Positions 9,037-39,614 of a DNA stretch of 64,000 bases are shown piece after piece (position 1 is the first letter of the stretch; each line of letters begins with the position of its first letter). The stretch comes from Thiomicrorhabdus chilensis DSM 12352 (GTDB lineage: Bacteria > Pseudomonadota > Gammaproteobacteria > Thiomicrospirales > Thiomicrospiraceae), in contig NZ_KI519609.1 in assembly GCF_000483485.1 (NCBI RefSeq), forward strand, positions 897,460 through 961,459, given 5' to 3'. The position numbers and the translations under genes were made by a program. The notes under the pieces were generated by a model. The model was not told where the DNA came from, did not search any database, and saw nothing but the letters and a program-made list of their open reading frames with translations.

Positions 9037-9108
9037 ACGCTTGCGAACCGAATCATCGTAGCCACAAGCTGGTTTTTTGGGCAGGCCTGTTCATATTACT
9101 CAAATAAT

Positions 9109-20514: not shown

Positions 20515-20542
20515 TTTACAGTCTCTAAGTTGCTGTTATAAT
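20515..20542 (+). promoter_or_regulatory. Sigma-70 promoter just after flgH
   Basis: TTTACA (20515-20520), 16-bp spacer, perfect TATAAT (20537-20542). Transcription would start near 20549 and enter the hairpin region that follows. Confidence 0.7.
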
Positions 20543-20548
20543 TTGAAT

Positions 20549-20659
20549 TTATCCGGTCGTCTTTAGTAGGAATGCGCAGAGTCTGTGCAAGGCTAAAGAC
20601 GCGGAACTCCCTTTACACCGGCCTGTTTTTCTAATCTCCTTTTTGCAGGTCGGTTTTTT
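20549..20659 (+). ncRNA. Candidate small RNA or attenuating leader between flgH and flgI
   Basis: About 110 nt from the predicted start to a T-run. The 9-bp stem CGTCTTTAG (20558-20566) / CTAAAGACG (20593-20601) encloses an inner stem (TGCGCAGA / TCTGTGCA, one mismatch). CCGGT (20553-20557) can close the whole structure with ACCGG (20617-20621). The transcript ends in a terminator, CCGGCCTG / CAGGTCGG plus TTTTTT. The closing stem and the terminator use the same bases, so they exclude each other. There is no open reading frame of note. It could be a free sRNA or a switch controlling read-through to flgI. I do not recognise a known RNA class. Confidence 0.55.
20618..20659 (+). terminator. Terminator of the candidate RNA
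   Basis: CCGGCCTG (20618-20625) / CAGGTCGG (20646-20653), eight pairs including one G-U, 20-nt T-rich loop, then TTTTTT. Confidence 0.65.
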
Positions 20660-20819
20660 CTTTGATACTTTTCCCGTTTTTTCTGATGTTTTCCTGACTG
20701 AGTTGCGGGTGAATATGGACCAATCCAAAATGAGCAGGCCTGCTGATTTTTAAAGAAAAACTCCCTATTTAAGTTCCCTTTGGCAGAATGACTGAAGATA
20801 AAATGAGACAATCGAGCGT

Positions 20820-20839
20820 TTTGGCACAGCCTCTGCTAA
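20820..20839 (+). promoter_or_regulatory. Sigma-54 promoter of flgIJKL
   Basis: TTGGCACAGCCTCTGCTAA: GG at 20823-20824, GC at 20835-20836, 10 bp apart; TTGGCAC is the exact -24 consensus. About 100 bp upstream of flgI. Between it and flgI, CCGTTTT (20867-20873) can pair with AAAACGG (20892-20898) in the leader. Confidence 0.9.
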
Positions 20840-26929: not shown

Positions 26930-27925
26930 ATGAATCATTGGCATGGAAAACAAGTTTTAGTCACCGGTGCAGACGGATTCATCGGTTCACACCTAGTGGA
27001 GTCGTTGGTGGAGGCGGGCGCTAAGGTTCGTGCTTTATGCCTGTACAACTCTTTTAACGATTGGGGTTGGTTGGAGCAAAGTCCGGTGCTGGCGGAGGTG
27101 GAGATCATCAGTGGCGATGTGCGCGATCCGTTTTTGTGTAAAAAGATTACCCAAGATTGCCATACGGTTTTCCACTTGGCGGCCCTGATCGCCATTCCAT
27201 ATTCCTATGTCGCGCCGAATTCTTATGTAGAAACCAATGTCAACGGCACCCTGAACATGGCGCAGGCCTGTCTGGATAATGGTGTGAGCCGTTTTATGCA
27301 CACCTCCACTTCCGAAGTCTACGGCACTGCGCAATATGTGCCCATCAACGAAAAGCATCCGGTGCAACCGCAATCGCCTTACAGTGCCAGTAAAATCGGT
27401 GCGGATGCCATGGCGATGTCTTATTTCAATGCCTTTGAAATGCCGGTGTGCATTGCGCGTCCATTCAATACCTATGGTCCCAGACAGTCAGCCAGGGCGG
27501 TGATCCCGACGATCATCACCCAGATTGCCAACGGCAAAAAACGCATTGAACTGGGCGACACCTCGCCGACCCGTGATTTCAATTATGTGACGGACACCTG
27601 CCGCGGCATGATGGCCATCGCCGCCTCCGAGAAAACCATCGGGCAGACGGTCAATATCGGCTCCAATTTTGAGATCTCCGTGCAGGACACCTTGGAGCTG
27701 ATCAAAGAGCTGATGGGCAGTGAGGTCGAATTTGTTCAGGACGAGCAGCGATTGCGCCCCAAGGATTCCGAGGTATTCCGCTTGTGGTGTGACAATAGCC
27801 TGATTCATGAATTGACCGGTTTTGAACCGCAAACCGATATTCGAGCAGGCCTGTCCAAAACCATCGACTGGTTTACCCAGGCCGACAACCTAAAACGTTA
27901 TAAAGCCAATATCTATAATGTCTGA
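26930..27925 (+). CDS. legB: LegB-type sugar-nucleotide 4,6-dehydratase
   Basis: 331 residues of the extended short-chain dehydrogenase family. The NAD-binding motif is TGADGFIGSHL (12-22). The active-site stretch is HTSTSEVYG (124-132), and Tyr151 with Lys155 form the YxxxK pair in SPYSASKIGAD. It resembles LegB, which removes water from GDP- or UDP-GlcNAc to give the 4-keto-6-deoxy sugar, the first committed step of legionaminic acid synthesis. The sugar-nucleotide form is inferred from ptmE in the same cluster (GDP). First gene of a tightly packed run in which most genes overlap. Confidence 0.85.
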   Translation: MNHWHGKQVLVTGADGFIGSHLVESLVEAGAKVRALCLYNSFNDWGWLEQSPVLAEVEIISGDVRDPFLCKKITQDCHTVFHLAALIAIPYSYVAPNSYVETNVNGTLNMAQACLDNGVSRFMHTSTSEVYGTAQYVPINEKHPVQPQSPYSASKIGADAMAMSYFNAFEMPVCIARPFNTYGPRQSARAVIPTIITQIANGKKRIELGDTSPTRDFNYVTDTCRGMMAIAASEKTIGQTVNIGSNFEISVQDTLELIKELMGSEVEFVQDEQRLRPKDSEVFRLWCDNSLIHELTGFEPQTDIRAGLSKTIDWFTQADNLKRYKANIYNV

Positions 27926-29102
27926 GATCATGCATCCACAGTCCGCAGTCCACAATACGCAAGCCCTGATTGCGATGATTCGCGAACACTACCAGAGTGA
28001 AGACTTCATTCCGCTGCATGCGCCTTGTTTGGGCCAGCCTGAAAAACAGACCTTGAACACCTGCATTGATTCCACCTTTGTCTCGTCGGTGGGTCAATTT
28101 GTCACCGAGCTTGAACAACGTTTTATCGATTACACCGGTGCGCGACATGCCGTTGCGGTAGTCAACGGAACCATGGGATTGTTTCTGGCGTTGAAGGTGG
28201 CCGGAGTGGAAAGCGATGACTTGGTATTGACCCAATCGCTGAGTTTTGTAGCGACCGCCAATGCCATTAAGATGTTGCAGGCCGATCCGCTGTTTCTGGA
28301 TGTCGATTCAATGTCGTACGGATTGTCGGCCGATACGTTAGAGAATTTCCTAAATGAACAGGCCTGTCAAAAAGACGGGATGTGCGTGCATAAACAAACG
28401 GGAAAAGTGATTCGCGCTTGCGTGCCGATGCATACCTTGGGTTTTGTTGCCGAGATGGATAGAATCGTGGAGATCTGCCAGCGACATGGTATCAAGGTAA
28501 TTGAAGACGCTGCCGAAAGTCTTGGGTCGTTTTATCAAGGCCAGCATAGCGGCACCTTCGGTGAGATGGGGGTGTTCAGTTTCAACGGCAATAAAATTCT
28601 GACCACCGGCGGGGGCGGCATGTTGGTGACCGATGACGCAGAACTGGCTAGCCATGCCAAACACTTGAGCACCACCGCCAAAATCCCCCACGCCTGGCTA
28701 TTTGAGCATGACGAGATCGGCTATAACCTGAGAATGCCCAACTTGAATGCCGCTTTAGGTGTGGCCCAATTTGATCGTCTGCCGGGCTTTCTGCAAGAAA
28801 AAGCCACGCTCGCAGCAAGTTACCGTCATTTTCTGTCCCAACAGTCGGATTTGACCATGATGCAGGGGCTTGCATCAGCCCAGCCGAATTACTGGTTGAA
28901 CGGTTTGATTCTGCCCGATCAGGCGTCGCGCGATGTGTTCCTGCAACAGGCCAATGAGGCCGGAATTCAAACCCGTCCTTTGTGGACACCGATGCATCAG
29001 TTGGAAATCTACCGGGACTGCCTGCGGTGCGAATTGCCCCAAACCGAATGGCTGGCAGAACGTGTGGTCAACTTGCCCAGCGGGGTGAAATGTCATGGCT
29101 AA
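27918..29102 (+). CDS. legC: LegC-type PLP aminotransferase
   Basis: 394 residues of the DegT/DnrJ/EryC1 aminotransferase family. The PLP lysine is Lys226 in FSFNGNKILTTGGGGMLVT, the aspartate pair is in IEDAAESLGS and the substrate loop is AVVNGTMGLFLAL. It would transfer an amino group to C4 of the keto sugar made by LegB. It overlaps legB by 8 bp and legH by 8 bp, so translation is coupled. The N-terminal 45 residues before the conserved core are typical of LegC-type proteins. Confidence 0.85.
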   Translation: MSEIMHPQSAVHNTQALIAMIREHYQSEDFIPLHAPCLGQPEKQTLNTCIDSTFVSSVGQFVTELEQRFIDYTGARHAVAVVNGTMGLFLALKVAGVESDDLVLTQSLSFVATANAIKMLQADPLFLDVDSMSYGLSADTLENFLNEQACQKDGMCVHKQTGKVIRACVPMHTLGFVAEMDRIVEICQRHGIKVIEDAAESLGSFYQGQHSGTFGEMGVFSFNGNKILTTGGGGMLVTDDAELASHAKHLSTTAKIPHAWLFEHDEIGYNLRMPNLNAALGVAQFDRLPGFLQEKATLAASYRHFLSQQSDLTMMQGLASAQPNYWLNGLILPDQASRDVFLQQANEAGIQTRPLWTPMHQLEIYRDCLRCELPQTEWLAERVVNLPSGVKCHG

Positions 29103-29772
29103 TACCTTAGATAGTGTCAAAACGCCTTTATTGCTGATTGGCGGGGGCGGCCACTGCGCCTCGGTGATTGATGTGGTTGAAAGTACGGGAAGTTATGAGA
29201 TCGTTGGCATTGTGGAAGCGCCGGGCGCGGAATACAAAGAATTGATGGGCTATCCGGTTGTCGGAACGGATGACGATTTGGAAAGCTTAATCCAACAAAC
29301 CCCCAATTGTTTGATTACGGTTGGCCAATTGAAAACCGCGGAATTGAGAAAAAAGTTGTACCAACAAGTCTTGGCGTTGGGTGGACAGATGCCGGTAATT
29401 GTTTCGCCGTTTGCCCGCGTGGCCAGACAAGTCGAAATCGGTGCAGGCACGGTGGTGATGCACTTTGCATTGGTCAACAGTCTGGCAAAAATCGGTCACA
29501 ATTGCATTATTAATAATTACGCATCAATCGAGCATGGTGCTTCTATCGGGGCGCACTGCCATCTTTCAACCCGTTCGACTGTTAATGGCGATTGCCATAT
29601 TGGCCACAGTTGTTTTCTAGGCTCGTCAGCCACCGTATTGCAGGGTAGGTCGATTGTCCCGGAAACGGTCATTGGCGCAGCGTCCTTAGTCACCCAAGAT
29701 ATTACTCATGCGGGGATCTATGTCGGCGCTCCCGCAAAACAATCTCTGGGCAACCGCCCTGAAGGATCTTGA
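29095..29772 (+). CDS. legH: LegH/NeuD/PglD-type sugar N-acetyltransferase
   Basis: 225 residues. The N-terminal Rossmann-like part has LLIGGGGHCASVIDVVE, typical of NeuD/PglD. The C-terminal part is a left-handed beta helix of hexapeptide repeats (IGAGTVVMHFALVNSLAKIG and so on to about 215), and the catalytic-base His lies in IINNYASIEHG. By position it acetylates the C4 amine after LegC, giving the di-N-acetyl-bacillosamine nucleotide. Acyl donor specificity (acetyl-CoA or other) cannot be read. Confidence 0.8.
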   Translation: MANTLDSVKTPLLLIGGGGHCASVIDVVESTGSYEIVGIVEAPGAEYKELMGYPVVGTDDDLESLIQQTPNCLITVGQLKTAELRKKLYQQVLALGGQMPVIVSPFARVARQVEIGAGTVVMHFALVNSLAKIGHNCIINNYASIEHGASIGAHCHLSTRSTVNGDCHIGHSCFLGSSATVLQGRSIVPETVIGAASLVTQDITHAGIYVGAPAKQSLGNRPEGS

Positions 29773-30948
29773 ATGCCCATGTTAGAAAAAGTTAGTTTCC
29801 CAACCACCCCAGATTTTGAACTTGGATTTGAACATTGTTCACGCCATACCGACTATCTGATTGCTCAACCAGCCGAGCCAGCCAAAGGTTTGGTGGTTTA
29901 TGTCCCCGGCTTTGGGGAGGATGCGGGCGATTATCGACAAAAGTTCTGTTTAAGGGTGGCCGAAAAATATGGTTTGGCGGCAATGACCGTGGATTATCAC
30001 TGTTTTTACAGTCGACCAGATGTGCAGAAATCGACGGTATATGAAGCGGAAGATGTCGCTTTGATCGAGAAATTATTTATGGCCAACAACCTGCCTTTTG
30101 CCGGAAATTCCATTGAGGAAGGGGTTGCCATTCTGAATCAGCATTTGGCTAAGAACAACCGCAAGGCTGCCATTACCGCCACCTTAACACCCGGTAAAGA
30201 TGAATACCAAAATGGCGGCGTATTGCAGGCGCTGGATATTATCAATGCGGTGGGTCATGCCATTGACCAATACGACATTCCTGTGGATAACGTCATCTTG
30301 GTAGGCTCTTCTTATGGTGGTTACATTGCAAACTTGGCGACTAAGTTTGCGCCCAATACCTTTAGAGCGGTGTTTGACAACTCGTCCTGGGCGCAGCCGA
30401 ACTTTATTTATATCGTCGGAAGAGAGTACGGCAAAGAAGAATATCTACACAATACCCATAGCCATATAACGACCAAGTTCTTTTTACGCACGGCCTGGAC
30501 CTTAAGAAAAGGGTTGCCGAACACCTTTGATGGTAAACGTTTTTATGTGAGAACCTTTTCGGAAGAGCAGATTGGGCAGTTCGCCGGATATCAGCCTGAA
30601 ACCTATTACTACTTTATTCACGCTGAAAAGGACAGACTGGCCTTGACCGAACATAAAATCCAGATGGCTACGTTTATGATTCAACAACAGATGAATGTAC
30701 ACATGGAAGTCATTGAGGCCAGTGATGTGGACGGTCAATATATTAAAACCATTGAACATGGAATGAACCTGTCGATGCTGACTTTTTTCGACAAGGCCTA
30801 TGCCCACATCGACGATCATCGCATCGGATCGGAAAATGATTTTATGAATCGTTCTACAATTGGCTATGATTCCGGGGATTGCCGCTATGAGTTCGATTAT
30901 TCCAGTCTGCCGGTTGTCGGACGGGTAGTGCAAAGGGCATCCGCATGA
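29773..30948 (+). CDS. DUF2920 family protein, predicted alpha/beta hydrolase
   Basis: 391 residues. It begins directly after the legH stop, with GAAGGAT as ribosome site, and its end overlaps legI by 4 bp. It resembles the DUF2920 proteins found in Campylobacter and Helicobacter flagellar glycosylation loci. The fold looks like an alpha/beta hydrolase: a strand LVVYVPGFGEDAGDYR near 40-55 and a nucleophile elbow VGSSYGG with Ser180 in G-x-S-x-G. The C-terminus has a possible catalytic His in TIEHGMNLSM. Function is unproven; it might remove or transfer an acyl group on the sugar or on glycosylated flagellin. No signal peptide, so cytosolic. Confidence 0.75.
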   Translation: MPMLEKVSFPTTPDFELGFEHCSRHTDYLIAQPAEPAKGLVVYVPGFGEDAGDYRQKFCLRVAEKYGLAAMTVDYHCFYSRPDVQKSTVYEAEDVALIEKLFMANNLPFAGNSIEEGVAILNQHLAKNNRKAAITATLTPGKDEYQNGGVLQALDIINAVGHAIDQYDIPVDNVILVGSSYGGYIANLATKFAPNTFRAVFDNSSWAQPNFIYIVGREYGKEEYLHNTHSHITTKFFLRTAWTLRKGLPNTFDGKRFYVRTFSEEQIGQFAGYQPETYYYFIHAEKDRLALTEHKIQMATFMIQQQMNVHMEVIEASDVDGQYIKTIEHGMNLSMLTFFDKAYAHIDDHRIGSENDFMNRSTIGYDSGDCRYEFDYSSLPVVGRVVQRASA

Positions 30949-31946
30949 ATACCTTCATCATCGCCGAAGCGGGCGTGAATCATAACGGTTCTCTGGAGAG
31001 GGCTAAACGGTTAGTCGATGCGGCACTGGCCGCCGGTGCCGATGCGGTTAAGTTTCAGACTTTTAAAACCGAAAAACTGGTGACGCAAGATGCCGAGCAG
31101 GCCGGTTATCAGGTTGAGAATACCGGTGTAAAAGAGAGCCAGTTCGACATGCTCAAACGTCTGGAGTTGAGCGAAGCCGATCATATCGAACTGTTTGATT
31201 ATTGTCAGCAAATCGGCATTGAGTTCATGTCGACGCCGTTTGATGACGACAGCATTGATTTTTTGCATCAACTGGGCATGAAACGCTGGAAAATTCCTTC
31301 CGGTGAGCTGCTTTCCATTCCGTATTTGAGAAAAATCGCCGCCTTCAACCAAACCACGATTCTCTCAACCGGCATGGGCGATCTGCAAGAGGTCGGCTTG
31401 GCGATTGAAACCCTGGAACAAGCAGGCCTGTGCAAATCCAATTTAACCGTTTTGCATGCCAATACTGCTTATCCAACGCCTTATGAGGACGTAAACTTGC
31501 GGGCGATGCAGACCTTGGCCAACCATTTTGGCGTTTCGGCAGGCCTGTCCGACCACTCTTTGGGCATTGAGGTGCCAATTGCAGCGGTGGCGTTGGGCGC
31601 GACTCTCATTGAAAAACATTTTACCCTTGATAACACCTTGCCCGGCCCTGACCATAAAGCCAGCCTTGAGCCCGAACCTTTAAAGCAGATGGTTCAATCA
31701 ATACGCCATGTCGAATTGGCGTTAGGAAGTGGGGAAAAAACCGCTTCTTCTTCGGAGCAGGGCAATAAGGCCGTGGCCCGCAAGCGCATTGTGGCGGCAA
31801 AAGCCATCACCAAAGGGCAAATTCTGACAGAACAAGACTTGACGCTTAAACGCAGTGACAGCGGCTGTTTTGCACAGCAGTGGGATGATTTGATTGGCAG
31901 CAAGGCTAAAAGGGATTACGCTTCCGGCGAGGGCATAGATGGCTGA
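30945..31946 (+). CDS. legI: LegI, N,N'-diacetyllegionaminate synthase (NeuB family)
   Basis: 333 residues. The NeuB domain starts IAEAGVNHNGSLERAKRLVDAA and contains KFQTFKTEKLV, IEFMSTPFDDDSIDFL, IPSGELLSIPYL and GLSDHSLGIEV. A C-terminal SAF (antifreeze-like) domain covers about 270-333 (RIVAAKAITKGQILTEQDL). It condenses the 6-deoxy-diamino-mannose made by LegG with phosphoenolpyruvate to form legionaminic acid. The start overlaps the previous gene (ATGA). It could in principle be a PseI, but the adjacent hydrolysing 2-epimerase favours LegI. Confidence 0.9.
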   Translation: MNTFIIAEAGVNHNGSLERAKRLVDAALAAGADAVKFQTFKTEKLVTQDAEQAGYQVENTGVKESQFDMLKRLELSEADHIELFDYCQQIGIEFMSTPFDDDSIDFLHQLGMKRWKIPSGELLSIPYLRKIAAFNQTTILSTGMGDLQEVGLAIETLEQAGLCKSNLTVLHANTAYPTPYEDVNLRAMQTLANHFGVSAGLSDHSLGIEVPIAAVALGATLIEKHFTLDNTLPGPDHKASLEPEPLKQMVQSIRHVELALGSGEKTASSSEQGNKAVARKRIVAAKAITKGQILTEQDLTLKRSDSGCFAQQWDDLIGSKAKRDYASGEGIDG

Positions 31947-33138
31947 ATCGAAACCCAAAAAGATTTGCGTGGTGACCGGAGCGCGGGCCGAATACGGTTT
32001 GCTGTCAGGCGTGATGCAAGCGATTCAGGCGCAAGCCGAATTAGAGCTTCAGGTGGTGGCCTGTGCCGCGCACCTGTCGGAAAAACACGGCATGACTCTC
32101 AATCAGATTCTGGCCGACGGCTTTGAAGTGGATGCGCAGGTTCCGATGTTGGTCGAAGGCGACGATGAATACGCGATTACCCAGTCGGTGGGTCGAGGAG
32201 TCATAGGATTTGCGGACGCTTACCGGAAACTTGAGCCGGATATCCTGCTGATACTGGGGGATCGTTATGAAATTTTGGCCGCTGCGCAGGCGGCCTTGCT
32301 GATGCAGATTCCGATTGCTCATATTCATGGCGGAGAAAAGACCGAAGGAGCGGTGGACGAAGCGATTCGGCATGCCATCACCAAAATGGCGAGCCTACAT
32401 TTTGCCGCCGCCGAATCCTATCGCTTACGAATCATTCAGATGGGCGAGCAGCCGGATAGCGTTTTTAACGTGGGCGCTCCAGGATTGGATCGGATTCGGA
32501 AATTGGCCTTACTGTCTGAAACCGAATTGCAACAGGATCTGGGAATCCACATCGATTCCCCGCTGTTTTTGGTGACCTACCATCCGGTAACGTGGGGGCA
32601 TGTTCAGGGGCAGGTTCTGGAGGCGTTGCAGAACCTGTTTGCCGCCTTGGAGACGTTTGAAGAAGCCACCGTGGTCTGGACCGGCGCCAATGCCGATGCG
32701 GACGGCGAGAAAATCAACGCCTGGGTTCAAGAGTGGGCTGCTCAAACCAAACTTAATGTTTTTTTTAAGACAACACTCGGTTCATTGCGTTATCTGAGCT
32801 TGATGAAGTTCGCGGATGTCGTGGTCGGAAACTCCTCAAGTGGCATCATTGAAGCCCCGGTCATGGGGACCGCGACCGTCAATATCGGTGACCGCCAAAA
32901 AGGCCGATTACGTTCGCCGTCAGTGATTGATTGTGACGAGTCTACCGAATCGATTAAGCAGGCTTTGCAGTTGGCGTTAAGTGAGGAGCATCAGGCTGTC
33001 ACAATGAAGAAGCAGAGCCTTTACGGGTCGGGAGACAGTGCAAATCAGGTCGCTGAGATTTTATCTGCATGTAATATAAACAAATCAGCAGGCAAAAAGT
33101 TTTATGATTTGCCCGATTGGCAACCACAGAGTGTTTAG
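31939..33138 (+). CDS. legG: LegG, hydrolysing sugar-nucleotide 2-epimerase (NeuC family)
   Basis: 399 residues. The family signatures are VVTGARAEYGLLSGVMQAI, LGDRYEILAAAQAAL, IAHIHGGEKTEGAVDEAIRHA (in parts) and VGNSSSGIIEAP. It hydrolyses the nucleotide sugar with inversion at C2, giving the free diacetamido mannose-type sugar used by LegI. It overlaps legI by 8 bp and ends 9 bp before ptmE. Its C-terminus (residues 375-399) is a short extension of no known role. Confidence 0.88.
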   Translation: MAESKPKKICVVTGARAEYGLLSGVMQAIQAQAELELQVVACAAHLSEKHGMTLNQILADGFEVDAQVPMLVEGDDEYAITQSVGRGVIGFADAYRKLEPDILLILGDRYEILAAAQAALLMQIPIAHIHGGEKTEGAVDEAIRHAITKMASLHFAAAESYRLRIIQMGEQPDSVFNVGAPGLDRIRKLALLSETELQQDLGIHIDSPLFLVTYHPVTWGHVQGQVLEALQNLFAALETFEEATVVWTGANADADGEKINAWVQEWAAQTKLNVFFKTTLGSLRYLSLMKFADVVVGNSSSGIIEAPVMGTATVNIGDRQKGRLRSPSVIDCDESTESIKQALQLALSEEHQAVTMKKQSLYGSGDSANQVAEILSACNINKSAGKKFYDLPDWQPQSV

Positions 33139-33147
33139 GAGAAAGTG

Positions 33148-34227
33148 ATGAACCTTTTTGACTGGCGACGAATTTCGGTGGATGAAACAGCTTCTATCAA
33201 ACAGGCGTTAACCGTTTTGGATAAAGAAGCCTTGCAAATTGTGCTGGTTGTGAATCAAAGCGGGATTTTAATGGGCACACTGACGGATGGCGATGTGCGT
33301 CGTGCTTTGTTGCGTGGAGTGGGCTTGGAAGACTGTGTGCTTTTAGCCATGAATGCGACGCCAACGGTGGGTTTGCAAAGCCAGAGTGAAACCGCCTGGA
33401 AACGCAAGATACTTGAGAAGTCGATTCGCCACCTGCCGATCGTAGACGCAGAGCAGTATGTGATTGGTCTTTTTTATGACAAAAAAGAGGTGCAAAAACG
33501 TCTGAATCCGGTGGTATTAATGTTGGGTGGATTGGGCACGCGCTTGCGCCCTTTGACTGAATCGGTACCCAAGCCGATGTTGCGGGTTGGAGACCGGCCG
33601 ATTCTGGAAACCATTGTGACGCATATTGCGGAGCAGGGTTTTGTGAACTTCTATTTCTGCATCAATTATCTGGGCGAACAGATTCGAAGTTATTTTGGTG
33701 ACGGCAGTCAGTGGGGAGTCAATATTGAGTATATTGAAGAGGATGAACGTATGGGTACGGCAGGCGCATTGAGTCTGTTGCCGGAAGTACCGGAATTGCC
33801 GTTTATTGTGATGAACGGCGATTTGCTCACTAAGGTGAACCTTTCAGCCCTCTTGGATTTCCATAGCGAACACCATAATATCGCCACAGCATGTGTGCGT
33901 GAGTATGCCCAACAGGTGCCCTATGGTGTGGTTGAGATTGAAGGCGCGCGGGTTACCCAGTTGGTTGAAAAACCGGTTTATCGCTATTTTGTGAATGCGG
34001 GCATTTATGCCCTGTCTCCGCAAGCGATGGACAAGGTGCCGGAACAAGCCTTTTATGACATGCCGACCCTGATTGATGAGGTCTTGGCCGAAAAAGGGCC
34101 GGTGGGTGGTTTTCCGATTACCGAATACTGGATGGACATTGGCCAAATGCCGGACTTTGAACAAGCGCAAGCGGATTATGAAGTACACTTTCAAAAACGC
34201 GTAACCAGCAATAATGAACAGGCCTGA
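33148..34227 (+). CDS. ptmE: PtmE-type sugar-1-phosphate nucleotidyltransferase with CBS pair
   Basis: 359 residues. Start at ATG 33148, six bases after AGGAG. Residues 5-115 form two CBS motifs (VVNQSGILMGTLTDGDVRRALL and HLPIVDAEQYVIGLFYDKK). The nucleotidyltransferase domain starts at about 123 with MLGGLGTRLRPLTESVPKPM, the glycine-rich activation loop. In Campylobacter PtmE has this layout and makes GDP-glucosamine for legionaminic acid. The other PtmE-pathway genes (ptmF, ptmA) are not in the window, so the exact precursor remains inferred. Confidence 0.82.
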   Translation: MNLFDWRRISVDETASIKQALTVLDKEALQIVLVVNQSGILMGTLTDGDVRRALLRGVGLEDCVLLAMNATPTVGLQSQSETAWKRKILEKSIRHLPIVDAEQYVIGLFYDKKEVQKRLNPVVLMLGGLGTRLRPLTESVPKPMLRVGDRPILETIVTHIAEQGFVNFYFCINYLGEQIRSYFGDGSQWGVNIEYIEEDERMGTAGALSLLPEVPELPFIVMNGDLLTKVNLSALLDFHSEHHNIATACVREYAQQVPYGVVEIEGARVTQLVEKPVYRYFVNAGIYALSPQAMDKVPEQAFYDMPTLIDEVLAEKGPVGGFPITEYWMDIGQMPDFEQAQADYEVHFQKRVTSNNEQA

Positions 34228-34232
34228 TTGAA

Positions 34233-34949
34233 ATGACACAGTTACACAGTAAAAAGGTTTTAGCATTGATTCCGGCAAGAGGTGGTTCAAAAGGGATTCC
34301 CAAGAAGAACCTGTTTCCCATTATGGCCAAACCTTTGTTGCAATACACCTTTGATGCGGCCAAGGACAGCGGCGCTTTAAGCAATATCATGATCTCATCC
34401 GAAGACGATGAGATTTTGCATTTTGCGCAGCTGCATGGCATTGATACGCGTTATCGGCGCCCGGCCAGTCTGGGAACCGATCAAGCTAAAACCGCCGATG
34501 TGGTCGAGGATGTTTTAAGGTGGTTGGAGCAGATGGGAGGGTATCCCGATGTATTGGTTTTATTGCAGCCCACTTCGCCATTGCGTTCGGCGGATGATAT
34601 CAATCGTGCGGTTCAGCGCTTCATTGATTTGGATGCAGATTCTATGGTGAGTGTGCATAAAATGGTGGAACACCCCTATAAGAGCATGCATCTCGGAGGG
34701 GGTGGTACATGGCAATATCTGGCCAAGCCTGCCGAGAAAACCCATAGAAGGCAGGATTACGATGAAAATTATTATACGATCAACGGTGCTTTTTATTTAG
34801 TGAAACCAGATTGGTTCCGCGAAAAACAGGCTTTTGTGGTAGAGGGCGAGACGGAGTTGTTCGAAATGAGTCCGGTGGCGGGGATTGATGTCGATGAACT
34901 GGTGGATGTGTTTAAAGTCGAAGCCTATTTGAAAATGTTAGCGAAATAA
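34233..34949 (+). CDS. legF: LegF/PtmB, CMP-legionaminic acid synthetase
   Basis: 238 residues of the acylneuraminate cytidylyltransferase family. The N-terminal motif ALIPARGGSKGIPKKNL binds CTP; LLQPTSPLRSADDINRA and the C-terminal GIDVDELVDVFKVE are conserved. It activates legionaminic acid with CMP for the glycosyltransferase. It follows ptmE by 5 bp and precedes the Maf gene by 17 bp. Confidence 0.9.
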   Translation: MTQLHSKKVLALIPARGGSKGIPKKNLFPIMAKPLLQYTFDAAKDSGALSNIMISSEDDEILHFAQLHGIDTRYRRPASLGTDQAKTADVVEDVLRWLEQMGGYPDVLVLLQPTSPLRSADDINRAVQRFIDLDADSMVSVHKMVEHPYKSMHLGGGGTWQYLAKPAEKTHRRQDYDENYYTINGAFYLVKPDWFREKQAFVVEGETELFEMSPVAGIDVDELVDVFKVEAYLKMLAK

Positions 34950-37734: not shown

Positions 37735-38601
37735 ATGGCAATGGTAATCAACACAAATATGGGATCTTTGAACGCCGTTCGTTTGCTGGAAGGTTCAAGT
37801 AAAGAACAACAAACTTCAATGGAACGTTTGACTTCGGGTCTACGTATCAACAAAGCAGCCGATGATGCAGCGGGTTTGGCGGTAGTCACGCAGATGAGCA
37901 CTCAGATTCGAGGCACAGATATGGCGATTCGCAATGCCAACGACGGCATTGCTAAAGTACAGACATTGGATGGCGCTTCTGAAGAGGTGACCAGCATGAT
38001 GCAGCGTATGCGTGAGTTGGGTGTTCAGGCATTGAACGGAACCTACAGCCAGGCAAACCGTTCTCAGATGGATGAAGAGTTTACCCAGCTGAAAGCAGAA
38101 ATTGAGCGTATTGCGCAAACCACCAAGTTTAACGGTGTCAACATGATGAACGGAGCGGCTTCGGATGCGTCTAACGCAGCGCTGTTTCATGTGGGTTGGG
38201 AAACCGGTGCAAATAACAAGATCTCAATGAGTGTCTTGAACTTCTCGGCGGGGGCTTTCTCTGATGGGGCAGGTTTTGTGGTGTCAGACCTAACTTTGAC
38301 GAGTACAGCGACAGGAACGACGGCGGCTTCTGCAACGGTTGTGGCTCTGGATGGAATGTTGTCGAGAATCAACACGCAAAGAGCATCATGGGGTGCATTG
38401 CAAAACCGTTTGGAATCTACGGTGTCCAACCTAACCAACGTCAATGAGAACATTCAGTCTTCGCGTTCACGTATCCAAGATGCTGACTTCGCAAAAGAAT
38501 CGGCTAATTTGGCAAGAACCCAAGTACTGCAGCAAGCAGGGATGAGTATGCTGTCTCAATCCAACCAGCAGTCACAGAATGTGTTGCAGCTGTTGCAGTA
38601 A
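37735..38601 (+). CDS. fliC: Flagellin, copy 1
   Basis: 288 residues with the flagellin D0/D1 N-terminus (MAMVINTNMGSLNAVRLLEG, ERLTSGLRINKAADDAAGL, RNANDGIAKVQTLDGASEE) and C-terminus (ASWGALQNRLESTVSNLTNV, ESANLARTQVLQQAGMSML). The surface region between them is short (about 165-215) and rich in Ser/Thr, including the segment TLTSTATGTTAASATVV, a likely target for sugar attachment by Maf. The start has AAGGAG 7 bases upstream. It has its own sigma-28 promoter and is followed by a long palindromic terminator. It is closely similar to the second copy. Confidence 0.96.
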   Translation: MAMVINTNMGSLNAVRLLEGSSKEQQTSMERLTSGLRINKAADDAAGLAVVTQMSTQIRGTDMAIRNANDGIAKVQTLDGASEEVTSMMQRMRELGVQALNGTYSQANRSQMDEEFTQLKAEIERIAQTTKFNGVNMMNGAASDASNAALFHVGWETGANNKISMSVLNFSAGAFSDGAGFVVSDLTLTSTATGTTAASATVVALDGMLSRINTQRASWGALQNRLESTVSNLTNVNENIQSSRSRIQDADFAKESANLARTQVLQQAGMSMLSQSNQQSQNVLQLLQ

Positions 38602-38726: not shown

Positions 38727-38747
38727 AACATTAAAAGGAGATTTATC

Positions 38748-39614
38748 ATGGCAATGGTAATCAACACCAATATGGGTGCGATCAATGCAAACCGTACATT
38801 GGAACGCACCGCTATTGAACAGCAAACTGCAATGGAACGTTTGACTTCTGGTAAGCGTATCAACGGTGCATCGGATGATGCGGCAGGTCTTGCTATCGCA
38901 ACTAAAATGACGACTCAGACAATGGGTACGGACATGGCCATTCGTAACGCGAATGACGGTATGGCAAAAGTTCAGACTCTGGATGGTGCGTCAGAAGAAG
39001 TCACCAGCATGCTTCAACGTATGCGTGAGTTGGGTGTTCAGTCTTTGAACGGTACCTACAGCCAGGCTAACCGTACTCAGATGGAAGAAGAATTCACTCA
39101 GTTGAAATCGGAAATCGAGCGTATTGCGCAAACCACCAAGTTTAACGGTGTAGAGATGATGAACGGTAATGCTTCAGACGCTTCTGATGCGGCCTTGTTC
39201 CACGTAGGCTGGGAAACCGGTGCCAACAACAAGATCTCAATGAGTGTCTTGAACTTCTCTGCAGGTGCACTCTCTGATGGTGCAGGTTTTGTTCTGTCTG
39301 ATGCAACCTTGACGAGTACGGCAACAGGAACGACTGCGGCTTCTGCAACGGTTGTGGCGCTTGACGGTATCCTATCTCGAATCAACACTCAAAGAGCTTC
39401 TTGGGGTGCGATCCAAAACCGTTTAGAATCGACCGTGTCTAACTTGTCTAACGTAAACGAAAACATTGCAGCAGCGCGTTCACGTATTGAAGATGCTGAC
39501 TTTGCCAAGGAAAGTGCTGATCTAGCGCGTACTCAGGTATTGCAGCAAGCTGGTATGAGCATGCTTTCGCAGGCTAACCAGCAATCTCAGAACGTGTTGT
39601 CGCTGTTACGTTAA
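38748..39614 (+). CDS. fliC: Flagellin, copy 2
   Basis: 288 residues, same length as copy 1 and alike along its whole length. Differences gather in the N-terminal coil (NANRTLERTAIEQQTAMERL) and at the last residues (SLLR against QLLQ). The Ser/Thr-rich surface segment TLTSTATGTTAASATVV is unchanged. Nucleotide identity is highest in the middle of the gene, suggesting gene conversion or recent duplication. AAAAGGAG precedes the ATG. It may be transcribed by read-through from copy 1 or from a weak promoter of its own. Confidence 0.96.
   Translation: MAMVINTNMGAINANRTLERTAIEQQTAMERLTSGKRINGASDDAAGLAIATKMTTQTMGTDMAIRNANDGMAKVQTLDGASEEVTSMLQRMRELGVQSLNGTYSQANRTQMEEEFTQLKSEIERIAQTTKFNGVEMMNGNASDASDAALFHVGWETGANNKISMSVLNFSAGALSDGAGFVLSDATLTSTATGTTAASATVVALDGILSRINTQRASWGAIQNRLESTVSNLSNVNENIAAARSRIEDADFAKESADLARTQVLQQAGMSMLSQANQQSQNVLSLLR

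Follow-up and report, generated by a model that had tools for sequence, protein, structure and literature searches.

A conserved terminator hairpin between flgH and flgI as a putative small RNA repressor of one flagellin in Thiomicrorhabdus and its relatives

Small RNAs with a C/U-rich pairing loop, or encoded next to flagellar genes, have been described in several bacteria. In Helicobacter pylori, RepG uses the C/U-rich loop of its terminator as pairing site, and this loop is reported to be sufficient for target repression (PMC8295292). CJnc230 (FlmE) of Campylobacter jejuni lies just downstream of a sigma-54-dependent flagellar gene, has a second, sigma-70-type promoter of its own and adjusts filament synthesis; two origins, the own promoter and processing, are both reported for it (PMC11187230). 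FliX, MotR, UhpU and FlgO of E. coli are small RNAs of flagellar genes, three of which pair with flagellin mRNA, while FliX lowers flagellin (PMC10578931). LhrC of Listeria (RF00616) combines a hairpin with a C/U terminator loop and a single-stranded part containing CUCCCUUU, and its motifs bind near the Shine-Dalgarno (SD) sequence (PMC4132741).

Here we analysed a window, i.e. the whole stretch of 64,000 nucleotides, of a Thiomicrorhabdus-group bacterium, a marine sulfur oxidiser whose FlgI shares 91% identity with its counterpart in Thiomicrorhabdus sp. ZW0627. The window contains flgB to flgL, genes of sugar and nucleotide-sugar type, flagellin genes at 37735 and 38748 and later flagellar genes, all named by reading their translations. 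Between the end of flgH (20511) and the start of flgI (20932) there is a gap of 420 bases. An earlier note on this DNA had stated that the two genes are normally adjacent, and this fits 19 loci outside the family, where the gaps range from -10 to 209 bases. Using TTGGCAY-N6-TGCT as the consensus of sigma-54-type promoters, we found five exact boxes in the window (14433, 17887, 20821, 40641 and 47700), which look like flagellar operon promoters; with at most one mismatch there are 10 boxes compared to 3.9 expected, and none of 100 shuffles had that many. The box TTGGCACAGCCTCTGCT at 20821-20837 (plus strand, as for the sigma-70 promoter, RNA, hairpins, seed, target and flagellin genes located below) is downstream of the terminator described below, so that by its position flgI has its own promoter. 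The element studied here sits between the end of flgFGH and this sigma-54-type promoter.

Two further observations concern the window as a whole. The palindrome CAGGCCTG is present in 20 copies (for example at 9082, 9184, 14295, 20735, 38621, 53509 and 53581) compared to 0.93 expected, with no more than four in any of 100 shuffles, and its extended forms ACCAGGCCTGGT turn up again in the flgH-flgI gaps of relatives; it is a candidate DNA-uptake or other genome-wide motif. The region 26930-34949, between flgL and the flagellins, holds genes of sugar epimerase, aminotransferase, NeuB-like and nucleotidyltransferase type (names from translations), which suggests that the flagellin may be glycosylated.

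The near-consensus sigma-70 promoter proposed to follow flgH is borne out by the sequence. TTTACA (20515-20520) and TATAAT (20537-20542) are separated by 16 bases, TG precedes TATAAT, and the predicted promoter (20515-20542) matches the consensus at 11 of 12 positions, a score that arises in 12 of 2000 dinucleotide shuffles of the flgH-flgI gap. From the promoter position, the terminator and the fold z-score we propose a small RNA of about 110 nt (20549-20660), both ends of which are predicted. The RNA 20549-20662 folds with -41.9 kcal/mol (z -3.98), and none of 200 shuffles folds as well. Both the extended stem and the terminator of the earlier note are present. The 5' hairpin (20558-20601) has the arms CGTCTTTAG/CTAAAGACG at 20558-20566/20593-20601, and a 62-base stretch here has a fold z of -3.0. 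The intrinsic terminator hairpin (20617-20659) has the arms ACCGGCCTG/CAGGTCGGT at 20617-20625/20646-20654, followed by a run of six T. Its loop contains the seed AUCUCCUUUUUG (20634-20645), which in the predicted fold is unpaired with a probability of at least 0.91 except for its final G. The earlier note had missed this loop and its flagellin target.

It had focused on mutually exclusive folds, since CCGGT (20553-20557) is able to pair with ACCGG (20617-20621). This part stands for the growing transcript: with the 3' end at 20625, 20635 or 20645 the CCGGT/ACCGG fold is the best one, and by 20650 it has disappeared. It does not stand for the full RNA, in which these pairs have a probability of 0.0 and the terminator pairs one of 0.999-1.0. 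Nor do the competing folds appear to be conserved, judged by reading the gaps of relatives, which revealed no shared upstream sequence of the kind expected for a switch. In the genus of the window an upstream hairpin tends to form (mean z of -1.62 in 18 genomes, compared to -0.74 in other genera), with a sequence that differs among species.

No Rfam family reaches its gathering score in the window, an outcome that agrees with the remark in the earlier note that no known class is recognisable. In a permissive scan LhrC gave the best match, followed by three weaker ones, but its 29.1 bits are far below the gathering score of 110 and we rejected membership in RF00616. The window RNA resembles LhrC in its layout, whereas the linker motif AACTCCCTTT of the window is not common to the aligned relatives.

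A DNA search of 58 relatives returned strong matches to the terminator part only. We aligned 22 homologues, comprising the window, 20 sequences from this search and Sulfurivirga caldicuralii. The loop UCUCCUUUUU is unchanged in all 22 while the stem varies: all 198 cells of the terminator stem are paired and seven of its nine pairs show changes on both sides. For four of five stem measures none of 500 shuffles reaches the observed value, and for the fifth two of 500 do. Paired changes, which the earlier note suggested looking for in both stems, are seen in the terminator, while the upstream hairpin is not conserved in sequence.

A covariance model of the hairpin finds a single copy (E ≤ 0.001) in each of 33 of the 62 family genomes, covering six of seven genera. 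All 33 copies adjoin flgH or flgI. In 29 the element lies between both genes, in G002 and G034 it follows flgH at a contig end, and in G013 and G024 it adjoins flgI with something other than flgH upstream. On the complete contig of G024 the upstream neighbour is a tRNA-Met gene facing away, and no match to flgB to flgH is found within 8 kb; in G013 about 240 bases of contig are left upstream of the element. Since the element stands before flgI without flgH in these two genomes, it is not simply a tail of flgH, and we rejected an origin exclusively from the flgH 3'-UTR for the family as a whole. A free small RNA of no known class, the other option raised in the earlier note, is well supported by this retention without flgH, by the compensatory stem changes and by the Rfam result. 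The terminator loop of G034 (L025) carries an additional stem-loop as an insertion, with the seed AUCUCCUUUUUG kept. The flgH-flgI gaps of G075 and G082 (L289 and L294) are only 51 and 46 bases long and the whole element is missing together with the sigma-54 box, in line with a deletion. In 369 genomes taken from across the class, three weak matches lie outside the family (E 4e-4 to 8e-4), none of which, on reading, has the CUCCUUUUU loop inside a hairpin. Weaker matches of the model elsewhere in relatives have E values of 0.003 to 0.07. The whole-genome searches that covered more than 40 genomes were filtered more strictly, at the cost of weak matches, and hence 'without the element' means no match at that level; for most such genomes the flgH-flgI gap was also read and the motif is absent.

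We also scanned the 100 bases upstream of the hairpin for promoter-like sequences in 32 of the 33 homologues, leaving out G034 with its loop insertion here and in the hairpin scan. Overall the scores are above those of shuffles (Fisher p 4e-6, with the genomes being related), but the median homologue is unremarkable (p 0.16), as are about half of the 32. As the scanned stretch excludes the window's own promoter, the row for the window is no test of it. In nine genomes (G033, G036, G071 to G074, G076, G080 and G081) the best -10-like box is 3 to 19 bases before the hairpin, and an RNA starting there would be little beyond the hairpin. In genus g5 the flgH 3' end contributes to an upstream hairpin, so that the RNA may there be derived additionally by processing of flgH mRNA, and an origin in the flgH 3'-UTR is possible in this genus.

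The proposed target is the SD region AAAAGGAGATT (38733-38743) of the second flagellin gene (38748-39614, named from its translation), which can form 11 contiguous pairs with the loop. The first flagellin gene (37735-38601) has the leader CACAAGGAGAAATATC, which is complementary to the loop no further than the core and provides a built-in control. Generally, two types of flagellin leader can be told apart, the first having AAAAAGGAGAT or a variant specific to the lineage and the second mostly CACAAGGAGAA or CAAGGGAG. The loop complement AAAAGGAGAT has six copies in the genome of the window, one of which is the element itself. Two of the other five precede an ATG by 5-6 bases, namely at the second flagellin and at a small inovirus-coat-like protein. 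The latter (56 residues, named by reading its sequence; L113 position 1501, minus strand, G000:C1:287717-287735) has a leader AAAAGGAGATttcgacATG exactly equal to that of the flagellin, and a filamentous phage gene could therefore be a target too. In 13 element-bearing genomes AAAAGGAGAT-N3-9-ATG gives 26 sites, which by their coordinates comprise 14 flagellin starts, one element and 11 scattered positions; a reversed control pattern gives three sites in the same genomes. The exact 10-base target is present at a flagellin start in 11 of the 13, the exceptions being G021 and G030, which have the element but an A, and hence a mismatch, after GGAGA. At least 10 contiguous pairs between loop and flagellin leader are found in 26 of the 30 genomes where both are readable. 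In the remaining four (G013, G071, G072 and G080) a contig breaks off within or beside the flagellin cluster, and the assembly may therefore lack the matching gene.

Loop and leader change together between lineages. A loop with CUCUCC goes with a leader GGAGAG, AAAUCUCC with GGAGAUUU, CUUAUCUCC (G031) with GGAGAUAAG, UACUCUCC (genus g5) with GGAGAGU, CACUCUCUCC (G036, G062) with GGAGAGA or GGAGAGC, and CUGAUCUCC (genus g28) with GGAGAUCAG in G073, where 15 pairs form; the leaders of g5, g28 and G062 were read after their loops. In the 30 genomes own loop-leader pairs have a mean of -16.0 kcal/mol compared to -14.6 for all pairs, with loop strings that take in one or two bases beside the stem. 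When loops are swapped between these genomes, 0 of 20,000 permutations are as good as the own pairing; three of the 33 element-bearing genomes (G014, G034 and G074) and nine of the 29 element-less family genomes, all lacking a recovered flagellin leader, do not enter the pairing test. Counted by lineage, the true arrangement alone among 720 reaches its score with six lineages, and with nine 64 of 362,880 reach it, where lineages and consensus letters were chosen by the analyst and G-U pairs were counted. At the base beside the SD core, loops with C face G in six of six genomes, and loops with A in none of 20. On the tree, restricted to genomes with a AAAGGAGA leader and a single state, this A/C difference needs only two changes, too few for a sign test. 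What we find, then, is a conserved unpaired seed complementary to the translation start region of another mRNA, and the two sides have changed in a matched way.

To judge specificity we compared the flagellins with the eleven genes flgB to flgL in 12 to 17 genomes each. These genes form a mean of 4.6-6.2 contiguous pairs with the loop and reach 10 in no genome, and own loops have no advantage over foreign loops (for every gene the energy is matched in 1002 or more of 5000 permutations). The best flagellin forms 12.4 contiguous pairs on average and reaches 10 in 16 of 17 genomes, with 0 of 5000 permutations matching its energy and three of 5000 its pair count. The worst-pairing flagellin per genome has no own-loop effect, like the control genes; as target and other flagellin are defined as the best- and worst-pairing one per genome, this selection favours the contrast in energy. 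Pairing of the loop with the leader of flgI itself was rejected (mean of 5.4 contiguous pairs, 17 genomes). By energy alone, allowing G-U pairs and stem bases, the second flagellin ranks only 8th of 58 window genes, as seven genes, flgL and flgD among them, score better; in relatives the matches at flgL and flgD are not conserved.

Other observations run counter to a strict coupling of element and site. In half of the 20 element-less genomes with leaders the best of 30 loops finds 10 contiguous pairs or more, and in G008 and G019 a near-perfect site persists without the element. Such sites may reflect recent losses, or a leader favoured for other reasons. Among the eight element-less tree genomes with a AAAGGAGA leader, the base after GGAGA is A in four (G027, G061, G075 and G082), T in three and G in one. 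Presence of the element and T or G at this position agree in two to three of five independent pairs, which proves nothing.

Taken together, the comparison supports a conserved hairpin with a near-invariant loop, compensatory changes in the stem, matched change of loop and target, and specificity for one flagellin. As the hairpin loop has coevolved with the translation start of a single flagellin, it probably blocks production of that filament protein. We consider it likely that the element represents a new family of trans-acting small RNAs, repressing one flagellin by placing the terminator loop on its ribosome-binding site. Transcription would begin at the promoter directly behind flgH, with RNA polymerase perhaps also coming in from flgFGH, and would end at the terminator, presumably giving an RNA of 5' hairpin, short linker and terminator hairpin. 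The loop of the latter would expose AUCUCCUUUUU(G) and pair over about 10-15 bases with the SD region of one flagellin mRNA, and this duplex would cover the ribosome-binding site and lower translation of that flagellin, sparing its paralogue. If the RNA is made and its pairing represses, we infer that it may serve as a brake or timing device on filament synthesis, responding to some trigger and perhaps needing Hfq; of features relevant to such a need, it shows a U-rich tail and the loop. More tentatively, and with doubts that outweigh our confidence, the terminator of this flagellar rod and ring operon could itself act as the regulator: every passage of transcription through flgFGH, together with a basal sigma-70 promoter, would release the terminator-hairpin RNA, with the loop holding back one of the two flagellins until the basal body is built. 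Under such an arrangement the RNA may be only about 50 nt long in some genera, and a translational checkpoint on flagellin choice would be added to the sigma-28/FlgM control.

Several other explanations have to be weighed. The element could be only the intrinsic terminator of the flgFGH operon, which insulates the sigma-54 promoter of flgI and has no action in trans. Its place, with flgFGH ending before it and the flgI promoter box following, fits, and the stem and T run would be accounted for, but the invariant loop, the presence without flgH and the loop changes matched by one flagellin leader are left unexplained, and we regard this as improbable. Somewhat less probable still is that the match is a by-product of a strong SD sequence, where any CUCCUU loop fits the leader of a highly expressed flagellin and the pair as such is not under selection. 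AAGGAG is common to all such leaders, and AAAAAGGAGAT is kept by G008 and G019 without an element. However, the matched positions reach beyond the SD core and change with the loop, and neither the other flagellin nor the eleven neighbouring genes follow.

A duplex over the SD normally blocks initiation. That the duplex would cover the SD directly argues against a real pairing with a different effect, in which the RNA makes the flagellin mRNA more stable or activates it, or is itself drawn off other targets by this abundant mRNA. In favour of such an effect, other window mRNAs do pair equally well by energy, and in E. coli UhpU and MotR raise flagellin whereas FliX lowers it (PMC10578931); against it, relatives do not conserve the sites at flgD and flgL, and overall we think it very unlikely. 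The riboswitch or attenuator of flgI suggested by the earlier note we consider highly improbable. CCGGT/ACCGG can indeed form before the terminator is completed, yet these pairs vanish in the full RNA, the sequence of the upstream hairpin is unconserved, no aptamer-like sequence is shared upstream on reading the gaps of relatives, no Rfam match reaches threshold and flgI has its own sigma-54-type box downstream.

If repression of one flagellin by the terminator loop is true, the broken flagellin clusters of G013, G014, G034, G071, G072, G074 and G080 should hold a leader matching their own loop, and in G071, G072 and G074 the expected leader is GGAGATCAG. The target is backed by matched evolutionary change in both partners, and since the layout is simple and the paralogous flagellin is a built-in control, one reporter pair can test it. 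More generally, it would show that the loop of an operon terminator can house a regulatory seed, although routine annotation of terminators passes over this part.

In the open-access literature, preprints aside, we found no description of this RNA among flagellin-pairing small RNAs, terminator-loop small RNAs, or small RNAs or flagella of Thiomicrospira, Thiomicrorhabdus and Hydrogenovibrio. We file it as a new small RNA family of the known base-pairing kind, set apart from RepG and CJnc230 by the descriptions of these RNAs. It shares with RepG the use of a C/U-rich terminator loop as pairing site, a resemblance in mode only, as the RepG target is reported to be a G-repeat in the tlpB leader and not a flagellin SD region (PMC8295292). 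The likeness to CJnc230 is one of position, by description, and extends to the presumed role in adjusting filament synthesis; unlike the element proposed here, CJnc230 sits after flgE and represses flgM and Cj1387c, and so raises flagellin (PMC11187230). The E. coli RNAs differ in being sigma-28-dependent and UTR-derived and in pairing within the fliC coding sequence instead of at the ribosome-binding site (PMC10578931). The flagellar small RNAs of E. coli and Campylobacter considered here act through other contacts than this element, which by analogy would resemble RepG in its pairing mode, CJnc230 in its position and FliX in its presumed effect.
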